NCBI GenBank assembly: GCA_018223125.1
Contig: JAAEZA010000024.1
Location: forward strand, 1 to 56,496
Source of the DNA: Paracoccaceae bacterium
GTDB lineage: Bacteria; Pseudomonadota; Alphaproteobacteria; Rhodobacterales; Rhodobacteraceae
Direction of reading: 5' to 3'
Length of the DNA: 56,496 nt
Under the pieces are notes generated by a model, which was not told the DNA's origin, did not search any database, and saw only the letters and a list, made by a program, of their open reading frames with translations. Below are positions 21,730 through 27,595 of the stretch, in pieces. The translations under genes and the position numbers were made by a program. Every line of letters begins with the position of its first letter. Positions within the stretch are counted from its first letter, which is position 1.

Positions 21730-22026
21730 ATGCCTGACGTCACAATTGTTTACTGGCGCGATATTCCAGCACAGGTCATCGTCGGCAAGGGCCGTCGCGG
21801 GGCCAAGGTCCAACTGCCGGAGCGGTTTGAACAGGCCATCGACCGCTGTGCCATGAAGATTGATGCCAAGGACACCGACAGCTATCTGGCGGAGTGGCGC
21901 AAGGCAGATCCTTATTCAATGGACGGAGAGCAAGGCAAGATTGCAGCCGCCGAAGCCGCCCGTCTGGATGCGGAATACGACAAGGAACGCCTGAAAACCC
22001 TTATTAACAACGACGGCTGGGATTGA
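21730..22026 (+). CDS. small 'virulence factor' domain protein (PF13769-like)
   Basis: 98-residue acidic protein beginning MPDVTIVYWRDIPAQVIVG and containing LPERFEQAIDRCAMKI and AEWRKADPYSM. This pattern fits the short 'virulence factor' domain family, whose name comes from old homology and whose function is unknown. No signal peptide or membrane segment is seen. It is the first gene of the one-carbon operon, ending 26 nt before the methylenetetrahydrofolate reductase ATG. This position suggests a role with the corrinoid/folate enzymes, perhaps as a small subunit. AGGA precedes the ATG by 4-8 nt. Confidence 0.8.
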   Translation: MPDVTIVYWRDIPAQVIVGKGRRGAKVQLPERFEQAIDRCAMKIDAKDTDSYLAEWRKADPYSMDGEQGKIAAAEAARLDAEYDKERLKTLINNDGWD

Positions 22027-22052
22027 CCCTGCCCCTTTTGAAAGCACTGCGC

Positions 22053-22982
22053 ATGGCACTTTTGAAGTTCAGTTCGAAAACCGATATCCGGAATGAAGTA
22101 AATCCCGATGTGGAAGCCTTCCTGAAAGGCTATTCTATCGAGGTTATGCCCAGAACCGCCGAGAAGGTTGAGGATTTCCGCGCTTTGCTGCCAAAGGGCA
22201 CGCGGGTTTACATCGCCCATATCGAAGGCACCCCTATCGAGGACATGGCTGCTACGGCAAAACGTCTGCGGGCAGAAGGTTATGACCCGATGCCACATTT
22301 CCCTGCCCGTATCATCAAGGACGAGGCAACGCTTGCGGACTGGATTGCGCGCTATCAGGGGGAAGCCGGTGTCGATCAGGCACTGGTTCTTGCCGGTGGT
22401 CTGGCCAAACCTTATGGAGATTTCCACTGCTCCATGCAGCTTCTTGAGACAGGGCTGTTCGACAAGGCAGGGTTCAAGCGGCTCCACACTGCAGGCCACC
22501 CCGAGCCGAACACCGATATTGATCCGGATGGCGGACGCAAGAACGTGAACGAGGCGTTGAGCTGGAAACAGGCGTTTTCAGAGCGCACCGATGCGCAGAT
22601 GGCGCTGGCGACGCAATTCTGTTTTGACAGCAGGCCGGTGATCGAATGGGCAAATGATCTCAAAGCGCAAGGTATTGATATTCCGGTCCATATCGGAATC
22701 GCAGGACCGGCCAAACTGCAAACCATGATCAAATTTGCTATTGCCTGCGGTGTGGGTCCGTCGTTGAAAGTCTTGCAAAAGCGGGCTAAGGACGTCACCA
22801 AGCTGCTGATGCCGTTCGAACCGACTGGCATTATCTCCGAACTGGCGGCCCATAAGGCTGCCAATCCCGAGTTCAACATCGAGCAGGTGCATTTCTTCCC
22901 GCTCGGAGGGATCAAAACCAACGCAACTTGGGCAATGGACCATGGCGGCACCTCCGCCCTGCCCGCTGCGCAACAAAACTAA
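22053..22982 (+). CDS. methylenetetrahydrofolate reductase homologue
   Basis: 309-residue TIM-barrel protein of the FAD-linked methylenetetrahydrofolate reductase superfamily, interconverting methylene- and methyl-tetrahydrofolate. The N-terminal catalytic-Glu strand reads SIEVMPRTAEKVEDF in place of the MetF SFEFFPPK. ALVLAGG, HTAGHPE and HIGIAGPAKLQT are recognisable. It is divergent from MetF, as expected for the version linked to corrinoid methyltransferases. The ATG at 22053 (MALLKFSSKTD) is preferred to a TTG at 22023 that overlaps the upstream gene. The stop is 11 nt before the methyltransferase. In a demethylation pathway it would work in the oxidising direction. Confidence 0.85.
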   Translation: MALLKFSSKTDIRNEVNPDVEAFLKGYSIEVMPRTAEKVEDFRALLPKGTRVYIAHIEGTPIEDMAATAKRLRAEGYDPMPHFPARIIKDEATLADWIARYQGEAGVDQALVLAGGLAKPYGDFHCSMQLLETGLFDKAGFKRLHTAGHPEPNTDIDPDGGRKNVNEALSWKQAFSERTDAQMALATQFCFDSRPVIEWANDLKAQGIDIPVHIGIAGPAKLQTMIKFAIACGVGPSLKVLQKRAKDVTKLLMPFEPTGIISELAAHKAANPEFNIEQVHFFPLGGIKTNATWAMDHGGTSALPAAQQN

Positions 22983-22993
22983 GGCCGAATTGA

Positions 22994-24058
22994 ATGACCC
23001 GTACTGTCGTCGAATCCAAAACAAAAACCGCCATTATCGGCTTTGACCAACCCTTCTGCGTTATCGGAGAGCGGATTAACCCCACGGGGCGCAAGAAACT
23101 TGCTGCCGAACTGGAAGCAGGCGATTTCTCAACCGTTGAAAAAGACGCGATCGCCCAGGTTGCGGCGGGGGCAAACATCCTCGATATCAATGCGGGCGTT
23201 GTCTACAACTCCAACCCCAACCCGAACGAGACCGAGCCACCGCTGATGCGTTCCATTGTAGATATGGTTCAGGGGCTGGTGGATGTGCCCCTGTGTATCG
23301 ACAGTTCCGTTCCCGGTGCGCTTCAGGCGGGTCTGGAGGCCGCCGAAGGCCGTCCGCTGCTGAACTCTGTCACCGGTGAGGAAGACCGGCTTGAGATGGT
23401 CCTGCCGCTGGTGAAGAAATACAACGTGCCGGTCGTGGCGATTTCCAATGACGACACGGGGATTTCCGAAGATCCCGATGTGCGGTTCGACGTGGCCAAG
23501 AAGATCGTGGAACGGGCCGCTGATTTCGGCATTCCGGCCCATGACATCGTGGTTGATCCGCTGGTGATGCCGATTGGCGCGATGGCAACAGCCGGTTTGC
23601 AGGTTTTTGCACTGGTGCGCCGTCTGCGCGAGGAACTGGGCGTGAACACCACCTGTGGTGCGTCGAACGTTTCTTTCGGCCTGCCAAACCGCCACGGCGT
23701 GAACAACGCTTTCCTGCCCATGGCGATTGCAGCGGGGATGACCTCTGCGATCATGAATCCGGTGGCGGCACCGGTCAACCAGACCAAACTGGACGCAAAG
23801 AAAGCAGAGCTGGCCGAGGCGGGAATCATCGTGCCGGACGATATGGATATGGAACTGTTCGCGCAGCTCACCGGCCTCGGATCGACCAAATTCGGTCCGG
23901 GCAGCGAGATGACAGCGATCCGTGCGGCAAACCTGTTGATGAACAACGATGCCCACGGCGGTGAGTGGATCAACTACAACAAAGCCCCTGTAAAAGCGGG
24001 CGAACAGGAAGCCGGCGCACGGGGCCGGCGCGGTGGCGGGCGCCGCCGCCGCGGGTAA
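22994..24058 (+). CDS. methyltetrahydrofolate:corrinoid methyltransferase with Gly/Arg tail
   Basis: Pterin-binding TIM-barrel enzyme (AcsE/MtgA class) moving a methyl group between a corrinoid protein and tetrahydrofolate, 354 residues. Seen: VIGERINPTGRKKL (about 22-35), GANILDINAG (the pterin Asp), CIDSS, NSVTGEEDR, and TTCGASNVSFGLPNR for the methyl/pterin pocket. Residues 1 to about 333 cover the usual family. The last 20 residues are a flexible extension ending GARGRRGGGRRRRG, resembling the tail of the reactivation protein at 25535-27595. No corrinoid-binding protein is adjacent. Confidence 0.9.
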   Translation: MTRTVVESKTKTAIIGFDQPFCVIGERINPTGRKKLAAELEAGDFSTVEKDAIAQVAAGANILDINAGVVYNSNPNPNETEPPLMRSIVDMVQGLVDVPLCIDSSVPGALQAGLEAAEGRPLLNSVTGEEDRLEMVLPLVKKYNVPVVAISNDDTGISEDPDVRFDVAKKIVERAADFGIPAHDIVVDPLVMPIGAMATAGLQVFALVRRLREELGVNTTCGASNVSFGLPNRHGVNNAFLPMAIAAGMTSAIMNPVAAPVNQTKLDAKKAELAEAGIIVPDDMDMELFAQLTGLGSTKFGPGSEMTAIRAANLLMNNDAHGGEWINYNKAPVKAGEQEAGARGRRGGGRRRRG

Positions 24059-24064
24059 AATTTG

Positions 24065-24099
24065 TTCCGGCCAGCCAACATGCGTTGCGCTGGCCGGAA
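24065..24099 (+). terminator. hairpin after the methyltransferase gene
   Basis: Perfect 11-bp GC-rich stem TTCCGGCCAGC/GCTGGCCGGAA with a 13-nt loop, starting 6 nt after the stop codon. The following bases (CAGTCTCTTCTTGC) are pyrimidine-rich but not a clean U-tract. It may terminate or stabilise the 3' end of the operon, separating it from the VOC gene. Confidence 0.55.
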
Positions 24100-24171
24100 C
24101 AGTCTCTTCTTGCTTCGCCTGTTCCCTATGCCGCGCAGTGGAACTAGGTTTCTTGCGAAAGTGAGACGATA

Positions 24172-24675
24172 ATGACCAATTCCTATACAGCACCAGCCGG
24201 CACCTCTGTGGGCCACATCCATTTGAAAGTTTCTGATCTCGACCGCGCATTAGGTTTCTATTGTGGAGTTTTGGGATTCGAACTGACACAGCGGTACGGC
24301 ACAGAGGCCGCATTTGTTGCAGCCGGTGGCTACCACCACCACATCGGGCTGAACACATGGCATTCCAAGGGCCAGCCCCCCGCGCCGCAAAACACAGCCG
24401 GATTGTACCATCTTGCCCTGCTTTATCCGACACGTGCCGATCTGGGCAGGGTGCTCTTGCAACTGGACCGGCACGGCATTGCCCTTGACGGAGCCGCCGA
24501 CCACGGGGTCAGTCAGGCGATTTACCTGCGTGATCCCGATAACAACGGGATAGAGCTGTACTGGGATCGCCCGCAGCCGGAATGGCCACGCAACAGCGAC
24601 GGTGAACTGGCGATGGATAACAGCCGACTTGATATTGATGCCTTGCGTCAAGCAGGCTTGGCCGCACCCACCTGA
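24172..24675 (+). CDS. VOC-superfamily protein (glyoxalase/extradiol dioxygenase-like)
   Basis: 167 residues forming one pair of VOC beta-alpha-beta-beta-beta modules. The metal-binding pattern is visible: H17 in VGHIHLKVSDL, a His in GLYHLALLYP, and a Glu in DNNGIELYWDR. AAGGYHHHIGLNTW is typical of catechol-2,3-dioxygenase-like (CatE-type) members. Substrate unknown. It lies between two genes of the corrinoid system but behind a hairpin, so its link to that pathway is uncertain. Confidence 0.8.
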   Translation: MTNSYTAPAGTSVGHIHLKVSDLDRALGFYCGVLGFELTQRYGTEAAFVAAGGYHHHIGLNTWHSKGQPPAPQNTAGLYHLALLYPTRADLGRVLLQLDRHGIALDGAADHGVSQAIYLRDPDNNGIELYWDRPQPEWPRNSDGELAMDNSRLDIDALRQAGLAAPT

Positions 24676-24737
24676 TCGGGCGCAGGCTTGGCAGCACCAC
24701 GACAAGCCTGTAGACGGGGACGGGAAGTGGACCCCCT

Positions 24738-25412
24738 TTGACCGATCCGACACAACGATCCCGTTCCATGCGCCTGACCAGACTGCTGGTCCGGCTTGGC
24801 GTGATCATCGTTGCTGCCCTTGCCCTGCACTTTGCGGTGAACTGGCTGGGTGAAGAAGTGAAGCATGTGGACAGCGGTGGTAAAAAGGTCATGTTTACGG
24901 GGATGCTTTTGCTGATCCTTCTGTCATATGCCTTTGTAATTGCGATACCTTTTGTGCCCGGTGTGGAAATCGGTTTAACGCTGATGGCCATGCAGGGGGC
25001 CAAGATCGCACCACTGGTCTTTCTGTTTACGCTGATCGGCCTTTCGCTTGCGTTTCTGGCCGGGCATCTGCTGCCCTACCCTCTTCTGTCACGCTTTCTT
25101 GAGACTTGGGGTCTGCGGCGCACTGCGCAAATGGTACAAGACATCGCGCCACTTGATCTGGAACAGCGCACCAGCCTGATGAAATCCCGCCTGCCAATGG
25201 TTCTCGGGCCGCTGTTCGTCAACTGGCGTTACGTGTTTCTGGCGATTCTGATCAACATTCCCGGCAATATGGTGCTTGGCGGTGGTGGCGGCATCTGCTT
25301 TTCCGCAGGGCTTAGCCGTCTGTTCCGCCCTGTTTGGGCGCTGCTGACGCTTGCCCTTGCGGTCGCGCCGGTGCCAGCTGCTTTTTACTTCTTGGGCATA
25401 ACACTGTTCTGA
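24738..25412 (+). CDS. integral membrane protein of unknown function
   Basis: 224 residues (from a TTG; an ATG at 24768 would give 214) with about five hydrophobic segments. Features are a glycine-rich turn IPGNMVLGGGGGI before a hydrophobic stretch and a PFVPGVEIGL motif near the second segment. These recall the re-entrant IPG loops of DedA/VTT membrane proteins, but the match is loose. I do not recognise the family with confidence. It precedes the reactivation protein by 122 bp. Confidence 0.65.
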   Translation: MTDPTQRSRSMRLTRLLVRLGVIIVAALALHFAVNWLGEEVKHVDSGGKKVMFTGMLLLILLSYAFVIAIPFVPGVEIGLTLMAMQGAKIAPLVFLFTLIGLSLAFLAGHLLPYPLLSRFLETWGLRRTAQMVQDIAPLDLEQRTSLMKSRLPMVLGPLFVNWRYVFLAILINIPGNMVLGGGGGICFSAGLSRLFRPVWALLTLALAVAPVPAAFYFLGITLF

Positions 25413-25534
25413 CCGGAAATTTCCGGAATTAATGCCGCAAATGGCCCAAAACTGACGCGGGCTGGCTTCCCATTTCCTGCCACCTGCCTATTGTCGCCCT
25501 GTTGGTTCCTCCCAAGTAGAACAGGCCGATTGAC

Positions 25535-27595
25535 ATGAACACTTCGAACGATCCACTGGTAATTTTCACTCCTTCCGGCAAAAGGGGGCGGTTTGCCGTT
25601 GGCACACCGATTTTGACCGCCGCACGCCAGCTTGGGGTGGATCTGGACAGTGTCTGCGGGGGCCGCGGCATCTGTTCGAAATGCCAGATACAACCGTCCT
25701 ACGGCGAGTTCTCCAAACATGGTGTATCCGTCGCGGATGATGCCCTGTCCGAATGGAATTCGGTTGAAGAACGCTACAAGTCCAAACGGGGCATGATCGA
25801 CGGGCGCAGGCTCGGCTGTCAGGCACAAGTTCAGCGCGATGTCGTGATTGACGTGCCCCCCGAAAGTCAGGTCCACAAACAGGTGGTGCGCAAGCGGGCC
25901 GAGGCGCGGGACATTGTGATGGACCCCTCCACAAAACTTTTCTTTGTCGAGGTACAGCAACCTGACATGCACGACCCCACCGGCGATCTGGAGAGGCTGG
26001 TCAAAGCACTGCGCGACCAATGGGACCTGCCCCATCTGGAAGCCGATCTCGGCGTGCTGGCAACCATGCAACCGATCCTGCGCAAGGGCGAATGGAAAGT
26101 CACCTGCGCCGTACATCTGGGAGATGATATGTTCAGCCCGCGGATCATGCACATCTGGCCCGGCTTTTACGAAGGCTCCATCTACGGGCTGGCGGTTGAT
26201 CTTGGTTCTACCACTATCGCGGGGCATCTGTGTGATCTGCAAACCGGCGAAGTGGTGGCCTCCAGCGGGTTGATGAACCCGCAGATCCGGTTTGGCGAGG
26301 ATCTGATGAGCCGTGTCAGCTATTCCATGATGAACGAGAGCGGCGCGCAGGAAATGACCCGCGCGGTGCGCGACGGTATGAATACCCTGTTCAGCAATAT
26401 CGCGGTCGAAGCGGGAATCGACCAGTCGTTGATCGTGGACGCAGTGTTTGTGTGTAATCCCGTGATGCATCACCTGTTCCTTGGTATTGATCCGTTTGAA
26501 CTGGGTCAGGCGCCATTTGCGTTGGCCAGTTCGGACAGTATCTCCCTGCGGGCACTGGAACTCGGCCTTAACCTGCATCCGGCGGCGCGGGTCTATCTGC
26601 TGCCCTGTATCGCGGGCCATGTGGGGGCGGATGCAGCGGCGGTGGCCCTGTCCGAAGCACCGGATAAATCCGAGGACCTTGTTCTGGTGGTGGATGTGGG
26701 CACCAATGCGGAAATTCTGCTGGGCAACAAGGAAAAGGTGCTTGCCTGTTCGTCGCCCACCGGCCCCGCCTTTGAAGGGGCGCAGATTTCATCCGGCCAG
26801 CGCGCCGCCCCCGGTGCAATTGAACGGGTAGAGATTGACCCTGTCACCAAAGAACCCCGCTTCCGCGTAATCGGTTCGGACCTGTGGTCCGACGAAGAGG
26901 GATTTGCCGAAAGCATCCTGTCCAGCGGGATTACCGGCATCTGCGGCTCCGGTATCATCGAAATGGTCGCGGAAATGCGGCTGGCGGGGATCGTCGATGG
27001 TCCGGGGCTGATCGGCTCTCCTGCACAGGTGGGCACCGACCGCTGTTTCCTTGACGGGCGCACCCATTCCTATCTGGTCTGGGACGGCACCGCCGAGGGC
27101 GGACCACGCATCACCGTCACCAACCGTGACATCCGCGAAATCCAGATGGCAAAGGCCGCACTTTATTCAGGGGCGCGGTTGCTGATGGATAAATTCGGTG
27201 TGGATACAGTGGACCGGATCGTGCTGGCAGGTGCATTCGGGGCGCATATTTCGCCCAAACACGCGATGGTTCTGGGCATGATCCCCGATTGCACCCTTGA
27301 AAAGGTAACCAGTGCGGGGAATGCGGCAGGAACAGGGGCGCGGATTGCGCTGCTGAATGTCGGCTCCCGCCGCGAAATAGAGCAGACCGTCAAGGCGATC
27401 CACAAGATCGAAACCGCGATTGAGCCCCGCTTTCAAGAGCATTTCGTCAACGCCAGCGCCATCCCGAATAGTGTTGAACCCTTCCCGATCCTTGAAACAC
27501 ACATCACCCTGCCGGATGTGAACTTCAACACCGGCGGCGAAGGTGACAGCGCATCGGGCGGTGGTGGTGGCAGACGCCGCCGCAGACGCGGCTAG
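25535..27595 (+). CDS. ASKHA-domain corrinoid-activation protein (RACo type) with 2Fe-2S domain and Arg tail
   Basis: 686 residues. An N-terminal plant-type ferredoxin domain has C41, C47, C50 and C95. Next come a linker and middle domain, then an ASKHA ATPase fold starting AVDLGSTTIAGHL (about 218-230) with VVDVGTNAEILLG and LAGAFGAHIS. This is the architecture of RACo/RamA-like enzymes that reduce inactive Co(II) corrinoid to Co(I) using ATP. The last residues are SGGGGGRRRRRRG, a tail not needed for the known fold and resembling that of the methyltransferase in this cluster. A strong terminator follows 16 nt after the stop. Confidence 0.9.
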   Translation: MNTSNDPLVIFTPSGKRGRFAVGTPILTAARQLGVDLDSVCGGRGICSKCQIQPSYGEFSKHGVSVADDALSEWNSVEERYKSKRGMIDGRRLGCQAQVQRDVVIDVPPESQVHKQVVRKRAEARDIVMDPSTKLFFVEVQQPDMHDPTGDLERLVKALRDQWDLPHLEADLGVLATMQPILRKGEWKVTCAVHLGDDMFSPRIMHIWPGFYEGSIYGLAVDLGSTTIAGHLCDLQTGEVVASSGLMNPQIRFGEDLMSRVSYSMMNESGAQEMTRAVRDGMNTLFSNIAVEAGIDQSLIVDAVFVCNPVMHHLFLGIDPFELGQAPFALASSDSISLRALELGLNLHPAARVYLLPCIAGHVGADAAAVALSEAPDKSEDLVLVVDVGTNAEILLGNKEKVLACSSPTGPAFEGAQISSGQRAAPGAIERVEIDPVTKEPRFRVIGSDLWSDEEGFAESILSSGITGICGSGIIEMVAEMRLAGIVDGPGLIGSPAQVGTDRCFLDGRTHSYLVWDGTAEGGPRITVTNRDIREIQMAKAALYSGARLLMDKFGVDTVDRIVLAGAFGAHISPKHAMVLGMIPDCTLEKVTSAGNAAGTGARIALLNVGSRREIEQTVKAIHKIETAIEPRFQEHFVNASAIPNSVEPFPILETHITLPDVNFNTGGEGDSASGGGGGRRRRRRG

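Follow-up and report, generated by a model that had tools for sequence, protein, structure and literature searches.

In a 56,496-nucleotide stretch of DNA from a Paracoccaceae bacterium (contig JAAEZA010000024.1, referred to in its whole length as the window), two enzymes of corrinoid-dependent methyl transfer, the methyltetrahydrofolate:corrinoid methyltransferase MtgD and a RACo/RamA-like corrinoid reductive activase, end in short tails rich in arginine and glycine. Membership, conservation and specificity revealed that such tails belong to the split methionine synthase system of these enzymes. Moreover, they are complementary in charge to its corrinoid protein, MtgC, and are absent or degraded in homologues that act without MtgC. 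The reading proposed here from sequence comparisons, to which a probability of about 0.55 is assigned, is that the tails are electrostatic docking tags holding the split enzyme around MtgC; on this reading the tags would bind MtgC itself, the acidic N-terminus of MtgC would be the binding site, and the contact would have a kinetic role.

Arginine-rich tails of the window enzymes and their partners

The MtgD gene (22994..24058, plus strand) encodes 354 amino acids matching Pterin_bind PF00809 (97.5 bits, cut-off 25.5) and NF005719 (398 bits, cut-off 259), and would supply the pterin-binding module of a split methionine synthase, the same domain as the pterin module reported for Phaeobacter inhibens and Ruegeria pomeroyi (PMC5764234, PMC12478193). 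The RACo/RamA-like protein (25535..27595, plus strand; 686 amino acids) combines a ferredoxin domain with RACo linker, middle and C-terminal domains (PF14574, PF17651, PF17650 and PF00111, the last at 21.9 bits against a cut-off of 21), and is of the same type as the ferredoxin and DUF4445 protein PGA1_c15200 of P. inhibens (PMC5764234). It stayed below the cut-offs of the curated subfamilies NF040756 (AcsV; 391 bits vs 800) and TIGR04270 (methanogen RamA; 108 bits vs 500), and by these scores it is classed as a relative, not a member, of either. MtgD ends in ...GEQEAGARGRRGGGRRRRG, with the tail proper, GARGRRGGGRRRRG, at 24014..24055, and the RACo-like protein ends in ...GGEGDSASGGGGGRRRRRRG, with the tail GGGGGRRRRRRG at 27557..27592, both on the plus strand. 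The two tails fall within the segments (23996-24055 and 27539-27592) in which a preliminary description, made from the sequence alone, had placed Gly/Arg-rich ends, and those ends were confirmed at these positions. MtgD occurs in two forms (loci L053-L079 compared with window 22994-24058), one (about 350-380 residues) that contains an additional segment near 259-304 and one, mostly shorter (about 300-330 residues), that lacks it; both are tailed.

MetH carries homocysteine, pterin and cobalamin modules on one chain. In the draft genome of the bacterium (98 contigs, 3.9 Mb), a homocysteine S-methyltransferase (PF02574), a corrinoid protein (PF02607 and PF02310) and a DUF1638 protein (L021:4400-5050; PF07796, 118 bits, cut-off 27) stand side by side at locus L021, and with the pterin protein (PF00809) the separate modules are all present, spread over two contigs. 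The corrinoid protein MtgC is the sole PF02607 match in the genome, and its three MttB-family methyltransferases (PF06253) all score above cut-off. The names given to the window genes follow from domain content and context, on which MtgD and the RACo-like protein match MtgD and RamA of the known MtgBCDE split methionine synthase/glycine-betaine demethylase. In P. inhibens the split methionine synthase is composed of PGA1_c13370, c16040 and c13350, with the RamA-like c15200 and the DUF1638 protein c13340, the latter being co-fit with the system (PMC5764234), and in R. pomeroyi MtgBCDE acts both as methionine synthase and as glycine betaine demethylase, and is reported as a major oceanic route of glycine betaine demethylation (PMC12478193). 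Genetic work is reported to show a requirement of the system for methionine synthesis in P. inhibens, and for both methionine synthesis and growth on glycine betaine in R. pomeroyi (PMC5764234, PMC12478193). DUF1638 is needed with this system in P. inhibens though it is untailed.

The rarity of the tails was assessed against 446 genes predicted from codon scores over 542,288 bases, or 14% of the genome, a sample that included the window and the MttB and MtgC loci by choice and contig starts for the remainder. MtgD, RACo and the homocysteine methyltransferase MtgE, which is encoded elsewhere in the genome and ends in PAETRTRRRRRD (final residues RTRRRRRD), took the top three ranks for the Arg count of the final 15 residues (7, 6 and 6; three other genes had 5), and the longest Arg runs in the last 20 residues were likewise theirs (RACo 6, MtgE 5, MtgD 4; the next gene had 3). 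This ranking led us to set aside a general habit of the genome as the source of the tails. Their Arg codons are mixed, running AGA CGC CGC CGC AGA CGC in the RACo tail of the window, although the MtgD tail closes with CGC CGC CGC CGC GGG, and tails of family orthologues use all six Arg codons, CGC and CGG being the commonest. Slippage is unlikely given the mixed codons, and it was set aside on that ground together with codon drift. A search for four CGN-Arg codons followed by Gly and TAA or TGA found the MtgD end as its sole match in the genome; the pattern is blind to AGR codons and to TAG, and it was not relied on.

Similar tags were found on other partners of MtgC. The closest MtgB-type protein of the genome starts with MSEAAPATRRRTRGGGGGAARRADR, and the two other MttB proteins carry RSGGRAGNTRR and RRSGGRAARQALR near their N-termini; the RR-GGR-rich N-termini that the preliminary description named for some rhodobacterial MttB-family proteins proved real, being seen in the MttB loci. 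In the MttB family the tag sits at the N-terminus and is RRR-GGG-AARRAxR-like; in MtgD, MtgE and RACo it sits at the C-terminus. The MtgB-type N-terminus was the most Arg-rich of the 446 genes, with 8 in 25 residues vs 7 for three others, one of them another MttB. The N-terminus of MtgC, MSEEEDEIILSELSDEELTLQMHDDLYDGLKEEIEEG, is strongly acidic and was the most acidic of the same set. Since neither the tagged MtgE nor the acidic MtgC had been part of the evidence behind the preliminary description, they served as a test of the proposal that the tag marks partners of a corrinoid protein. In AlphaFold2 models, residues 337-350 and 352-354 of the MtgD tail have a confidence score (pLDDT) below 50; the first ten residues of MtgC, mostly coil, have a mean pLDDT of 61, and a well-predicted acidic helix comes after them at 15-27.

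Conservation and specificity of the tags

The RACo reactivase was detected in 141 of 149 genomes of the same family. In the family loci, at least 4 Arg in the last 20 residues were present in all RACo (30/30), MtgD (28/28) and MtgE (29/29) proteins. The same mark was reached by 28/30 RACo and 27/28 MtgD proteins in a class sample of 30 genomes from 29 alphaproteobacterial families, at identities of 51-76% for RACo and 65-77% for MtgD. These counts take in four RACo proteins (L193, L203, L205 and L208) and one MtgD (L226) that the script had missed and that were all found tailed when read by eye. At L219 the MtgD open reading frame (ORF) that was counted has an untypical Arg-bearing end, and a second MtgD copy in the locus is tailed in the usual way; a complete MtgD was not found in class genomes G204 and G404. 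The RACo of L206, in genome G232, is the sole orthologue read without any Arg-rich stretch. Among named genomes (Ruegeria, Roseovarius, Leisingera, Sinorhizobium, Shinella, Rhizobium and others), MtgE had at least 4 Arg in the last 20 residues in 48/48 loci where its ORF was found; the script found no MtgE ORF in 32 of the 80 loci. A phylum search of 398 genomes yielded one genome outside the class, G508, with a close MtgC (71% identity), and there too the MtgC start is acidic and both MtgD and RACo are tailed.

The N-terminal tag of the MttB family was similarly conserved. Among 30 MttB loci, all 23 that were scored had at least 5 Arg at the N-terminus, and 21 of them (all except L137 and L140) carried a GG-AARRAER-type motif; the seven unscored loci (L118, L121, L124, L129, L130, L135 and L141) look tagged by eye. 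Divergent MttB paralogues (27-51% identity) had at least 5 K/R within 20 residues in 13/13 scored cases, often as RRSGGRxARxALR. Twenty such loci had been fetched, of which six more are alike by eye, L392 is unreadable, and L378 is the gene of L141. The divergent set is by itself the weaker evidence, because 126 of the 446 ordinary genes reach the same K/R mark.

Over the 24 residues up to the LYDG helix, the net charge of MtgC was -7 or lower in 127/127 scored loci, with medians of -10 to -11. The full set comprised 129 loci, and when the two unscored ones (L163 and L260) were read by eye and also found acidic, the acidic start was seen in 29/29 family, 20/20 class and 80/80 named loci. The same segment also has invariant hydrophobic residues, L10, L13 and L18.

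The specificity of the C-terminal tails was counted at 159 loci of other genomes, holding 1082 genes, with a criterion of at least 5 Arg in the last 15 residues. It was reached by 43/44 homocysteine modules, 39/53 pterin proteins and 27/30 RACo proteins, and by 0/103 corrinoid proteins and 18/830 other genes, at least 3 of these 18 being RACo or MtgE that the motif tags had overlooked. The count of 18/830 led to a general habit of neighbouring genes being set aside as well. The suggestion in the preliminary description that one kind of tag sits on enzymes that must reach the same corrinoid protein is borne out to the extent that the tags are found together in genomes holding MtgC and are rare on other genes; tails are present in orthologues and are not equally common in unrelated proteins, the two points on which that description had made its proposal depend.

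Homologues that do not work with MtgC provided natural controls. In three family genomes the split system coexists with a two-part MetH, which comprises a 925-971-residue open frame and a homocysteine module of about 350 residues; there MtgE is tailed, whereas the homocysteine module of MetH has no tail. The same is true of the homocysteine module in a fourth genome, which has a two-part MetH and no MtgC, and all four modules have 2-3 Arg in the last 20 residues and no long Arg run. Similarly, seven class genomes carry a second, MttC-type corrinoid cluster (L262, L264, L269 and L271-L274) composed of an MttC-type corrinoid protein, RACo-like and pterin-like proteins and a further protein (MTSRERVLAALRREPVDRTPV...), in which no poly-Arg runs occur. 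Its corrinoid protein is 43-48% identical to MtgC, its RACo-like protein 35-38% and its pterin protein 31-38% identical to their counterparts. The RACo-like proteins of these clusters have 0-3 Arg in the last 20 residues, and 4/6 of the pterin proteins have 1-3, with no run in any of the six.

All partners were looked for in 34 family genomes, five of which are without MtgC, MtgD and RACo. Two such MtgC-less genomes keep leftover genes of the system. In G046 an MtgE-like leftover (L175:870-1919, on G046:C5; 46% identity) has lost the zinc-site CC and ends in AATRRA, without a tail, and in G088 the MttB protein (L137/L177; L177:3432-4961, on G088:C1) reads MAEATTRRRSRDGEAGRGSAVV, with the broken tag motif RRRSRDGEAGRGS and GGGAARRAER missing. 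These leftover genes, two cases only, both go the way that the docking reading predicts.

Proposed docking on MtgC and competing explanations

MtgD (acting on 5-methyl-H4F), MtgE (homocysteine), MtgB/MttB (glycine betaine, probably along with other methylamines) and the RACo-like reactivase are separate proteins, and the active site of each has to reach the cobalamin of MtgC. Under the docking reading, their flexible Arg/Gly-rich termini would dock on the negative N-terminus of MtgC by weak and fast binding of opposite charges, which would keep the partners near MtgC and let them exchange, so that docking tags would replace the covalent linkers of MetH and several donors could share one carrier. 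A wider version can be put forward somewhat tentatively, in which the tags form a charge-based docking code: an Arg/Gly tag at either terminus would mark the loaders, unloaders and reactivators of MtgC cobalamin, act as a bar code for the MttB paralogues that feed MtgC, and stand in for MetH linkers. If true, a short tag transferable between several folds would explain how the parts of a split MetH meet one cobalamin without linkers, would predict which MttB paralogues belong to the MtgC hub, and could be put to use as a compact module in the construction of enzyme complexes. In practice, it would also warn against fusing an affinity tag to the Arg-rich end, where it may interfere with assembly.

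An RG/RGG-like composition is characteristic of proteins that bind nucleic acids or undergo phase separation. As it is common to four tagged protein types, and as rhizobial MtgD ends in RRGGRAARAG, which is near RGG motifs, the tails might instead attach to a negatively charged polymer or surface (RNA, polyphosphate, DNA or membrane lipids) and co-localise the enzymes there, possibly in a condensate, the acidity of MtgC being incidental or an aid to partition. This is judged unlikely: if the tails bound anions in general, no restriction to corrinoid partners would be expected, yet the MetF-like neighbour and DUF1638 are untailed, and MtgC, which would need to enter the same body, is oppositely charged. 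Nucleic-acid-binding proteins of the RGG type are defined by multiple RGG/RG repeats. The tails read here consist mostly of Arg runs or RxGGR. The preliminary description had left docking, condensation and binding to nucleic acid or membrane side by side; the acidic N-terminus of MtgC favours docking, as a conditional reading, over nucleic-acid or membrane binding, and the interpretation as a whole is in this sense partly supported. Assembly by the tags through another site on MtgC, or through a scaffold, appears rather improbable. It would agree with the acidic N-termini of other corrinoid proteins, which are not unique to MtgC, and with the invariant leucines of the MtgC start, which may serve the cap fold of MtgC itself; however, besides a lipoprotein-like family, no other recurrent Arg-ended protein was seen beside these genes, in an inspection that did not include a search for acidic scaffolds.

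The polyglutamate chain of folate, the substrate of MtgD, is acidic. From this it could be supposed that each tail serves the chemistry or stability of its own enzyme, by contact with folate polyglutamate or with the phosphates of cobalamin or ATP, and that the tails arose separately. MtgE, MtgB and RACo do not use folate, a point on which folate polyglutamate binding was set aside; the homocysteine modules of MetH are untailed, and the MttB tag sits at the opposite end. Moreover, solved homologues from anaerobic corrinoid systems and related enzymes (MtgB 2qne, RACo 3zyy and 4c1n, AcsE 2e7f, MttC chain 7xcn_M) have homologous cores and the same kind of chemistry, and they match only as far as the tags, although their PDB chains may be shortened constructs: 2qne aligns from query residue 35, 3zyy to 651 of 686, 2e7f to 257 of 354, and 7xcn_M from MtgC profile position 16. 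Separate functions of this kind are accordingly held to be very improbable. Least credible of all is that the tails are neutral drift of protein ends toward CGC/CGG codons, or linker remnants of a once fused MetH. CGC and CGG are indeed the commonest Arg codons of the tails, but all six are used within the family, nearby genes are rarely Arg-ended (the 18/830 given above), the tails have been kept in 29 sampled families at 51-77% protein identity, and the homocysteine modules of two-part MetH carry none.

Several observations nevertheless weigh against docking on the acidic start of MtgC. The main doubt comes from MttC-type corrinoid proteins, which have no poly-Arg partners and yet are acidic too, at -3 to -10 over the first 30 residues (from plausible starts) compared with about -11 in 24 residues for MtgC. 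What sets MtgC apart is thus a matter of degree and of its additional first residues, and the acidic segment may not be the sole or true receptor. In the same clusters, the pterin proteins of L269 and L271 (2/6) have 4-5 Arg in the last 20 residues, without a run. Basic N-termini are also common in the genome, where 37 of the 446 genes have at least 5 Arg in a 20-residue window and the 126 mentioned above at least 5 K/R, and the MttB of G088 still keeps 5 Arg near its start, the lowest of the 23 scored, with only the motif broken. Among orthologues, the RACo of L206 has no tail in any frame, though the MtgD of the same genome is tailed; the Arg stretch is followed by about 40 more residues in the RACo of L186 and lies farther from the end in the MtgD of L216; and in named loci only 6/9 MtgD proteins reach 4 Arg in the last 15 residues, the rhizobial type ending in RRGGRAARAGAG or in RRGGRAARAGAGAKTE-like sequences. 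Genomes G054 and G069 (assemblies of > 100 contigs each) have no RACo match, and G069 no MtgD match either, yet both keep MtgC and tailed partners. DUF1638 had 0-3 Arg in the last 15 residues in the 14 of 79 matched ORFs that were inspected, and it alone lacks a tail among the five genes that are reported to act jointly in P. inhibens. Finally, MtgE (Bmt) of P. inhibens is reported to make methionine directly from betaine or DMSP (PMC12366255), so the carrier is not always needed.

Known systems and neighbouring genes

The enzymes themselves were already known. The split methionine synthase of P. inhibens has the same domain set (homocysteine, pterin, corrinoid, RACo-like reactivase and DUF1638), and the sections of its description drawn on here make no mention of tails or of how the pieces meet (PMC5764234). 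Similarly, MtgC of R. pomeroyi is a hub for MtgB, MtgD, MtgE and RamA, as here, and the main text of that paper, within the portion covered, does not contain 'tail', 'arginine' or 'disordered' and describes no docking element (PMC12478193). Term searches within the covered portions of two 2025 papers (PMC12478193 and PMC12366255) returned no report of tags, and neither did a search by title and start of abstract for Arg tags or docking in corrinoid systems, in a literature largely without subscription papers and bioRxiv. The tags may nevertheless be described elsewhere. In full-length and two-part MetH, the homocysteine, pterin and cobalamin modules act together as in the split system; there, however, they are fused wholly or partly, and no Arg tail is present on the four homocysteine modules read from two-part MetH. 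One structure contains the tag in its sequence: 4yyc, a putative trimethylamine methyltransferase of 525 amino acids, which aligned from query residue 4 and whose N-terminus, GGGRRARGEGRGAAARRASRTGGG, resembles those of rhizobial MttB loci.

A lipoprotein-like protein ending in NARESRRR or similar is encoded near mtgC at several loci (L307, L320, L325, L329, L336, L359 and L021:1331-1867); were it secreted, a connection with the tags would be improbable. In the window, mtgD is adjoined by the gene of a MetF-like protein (22023..22982, plus strand; a weak TIGR00676 match of 19.7 bits, far under cut-off), which ends in ALPAAQQN and has no tail. A metF paralogue (metF2) likewise lies beside mtgD in R. 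pomeroyi (PMC12478193).

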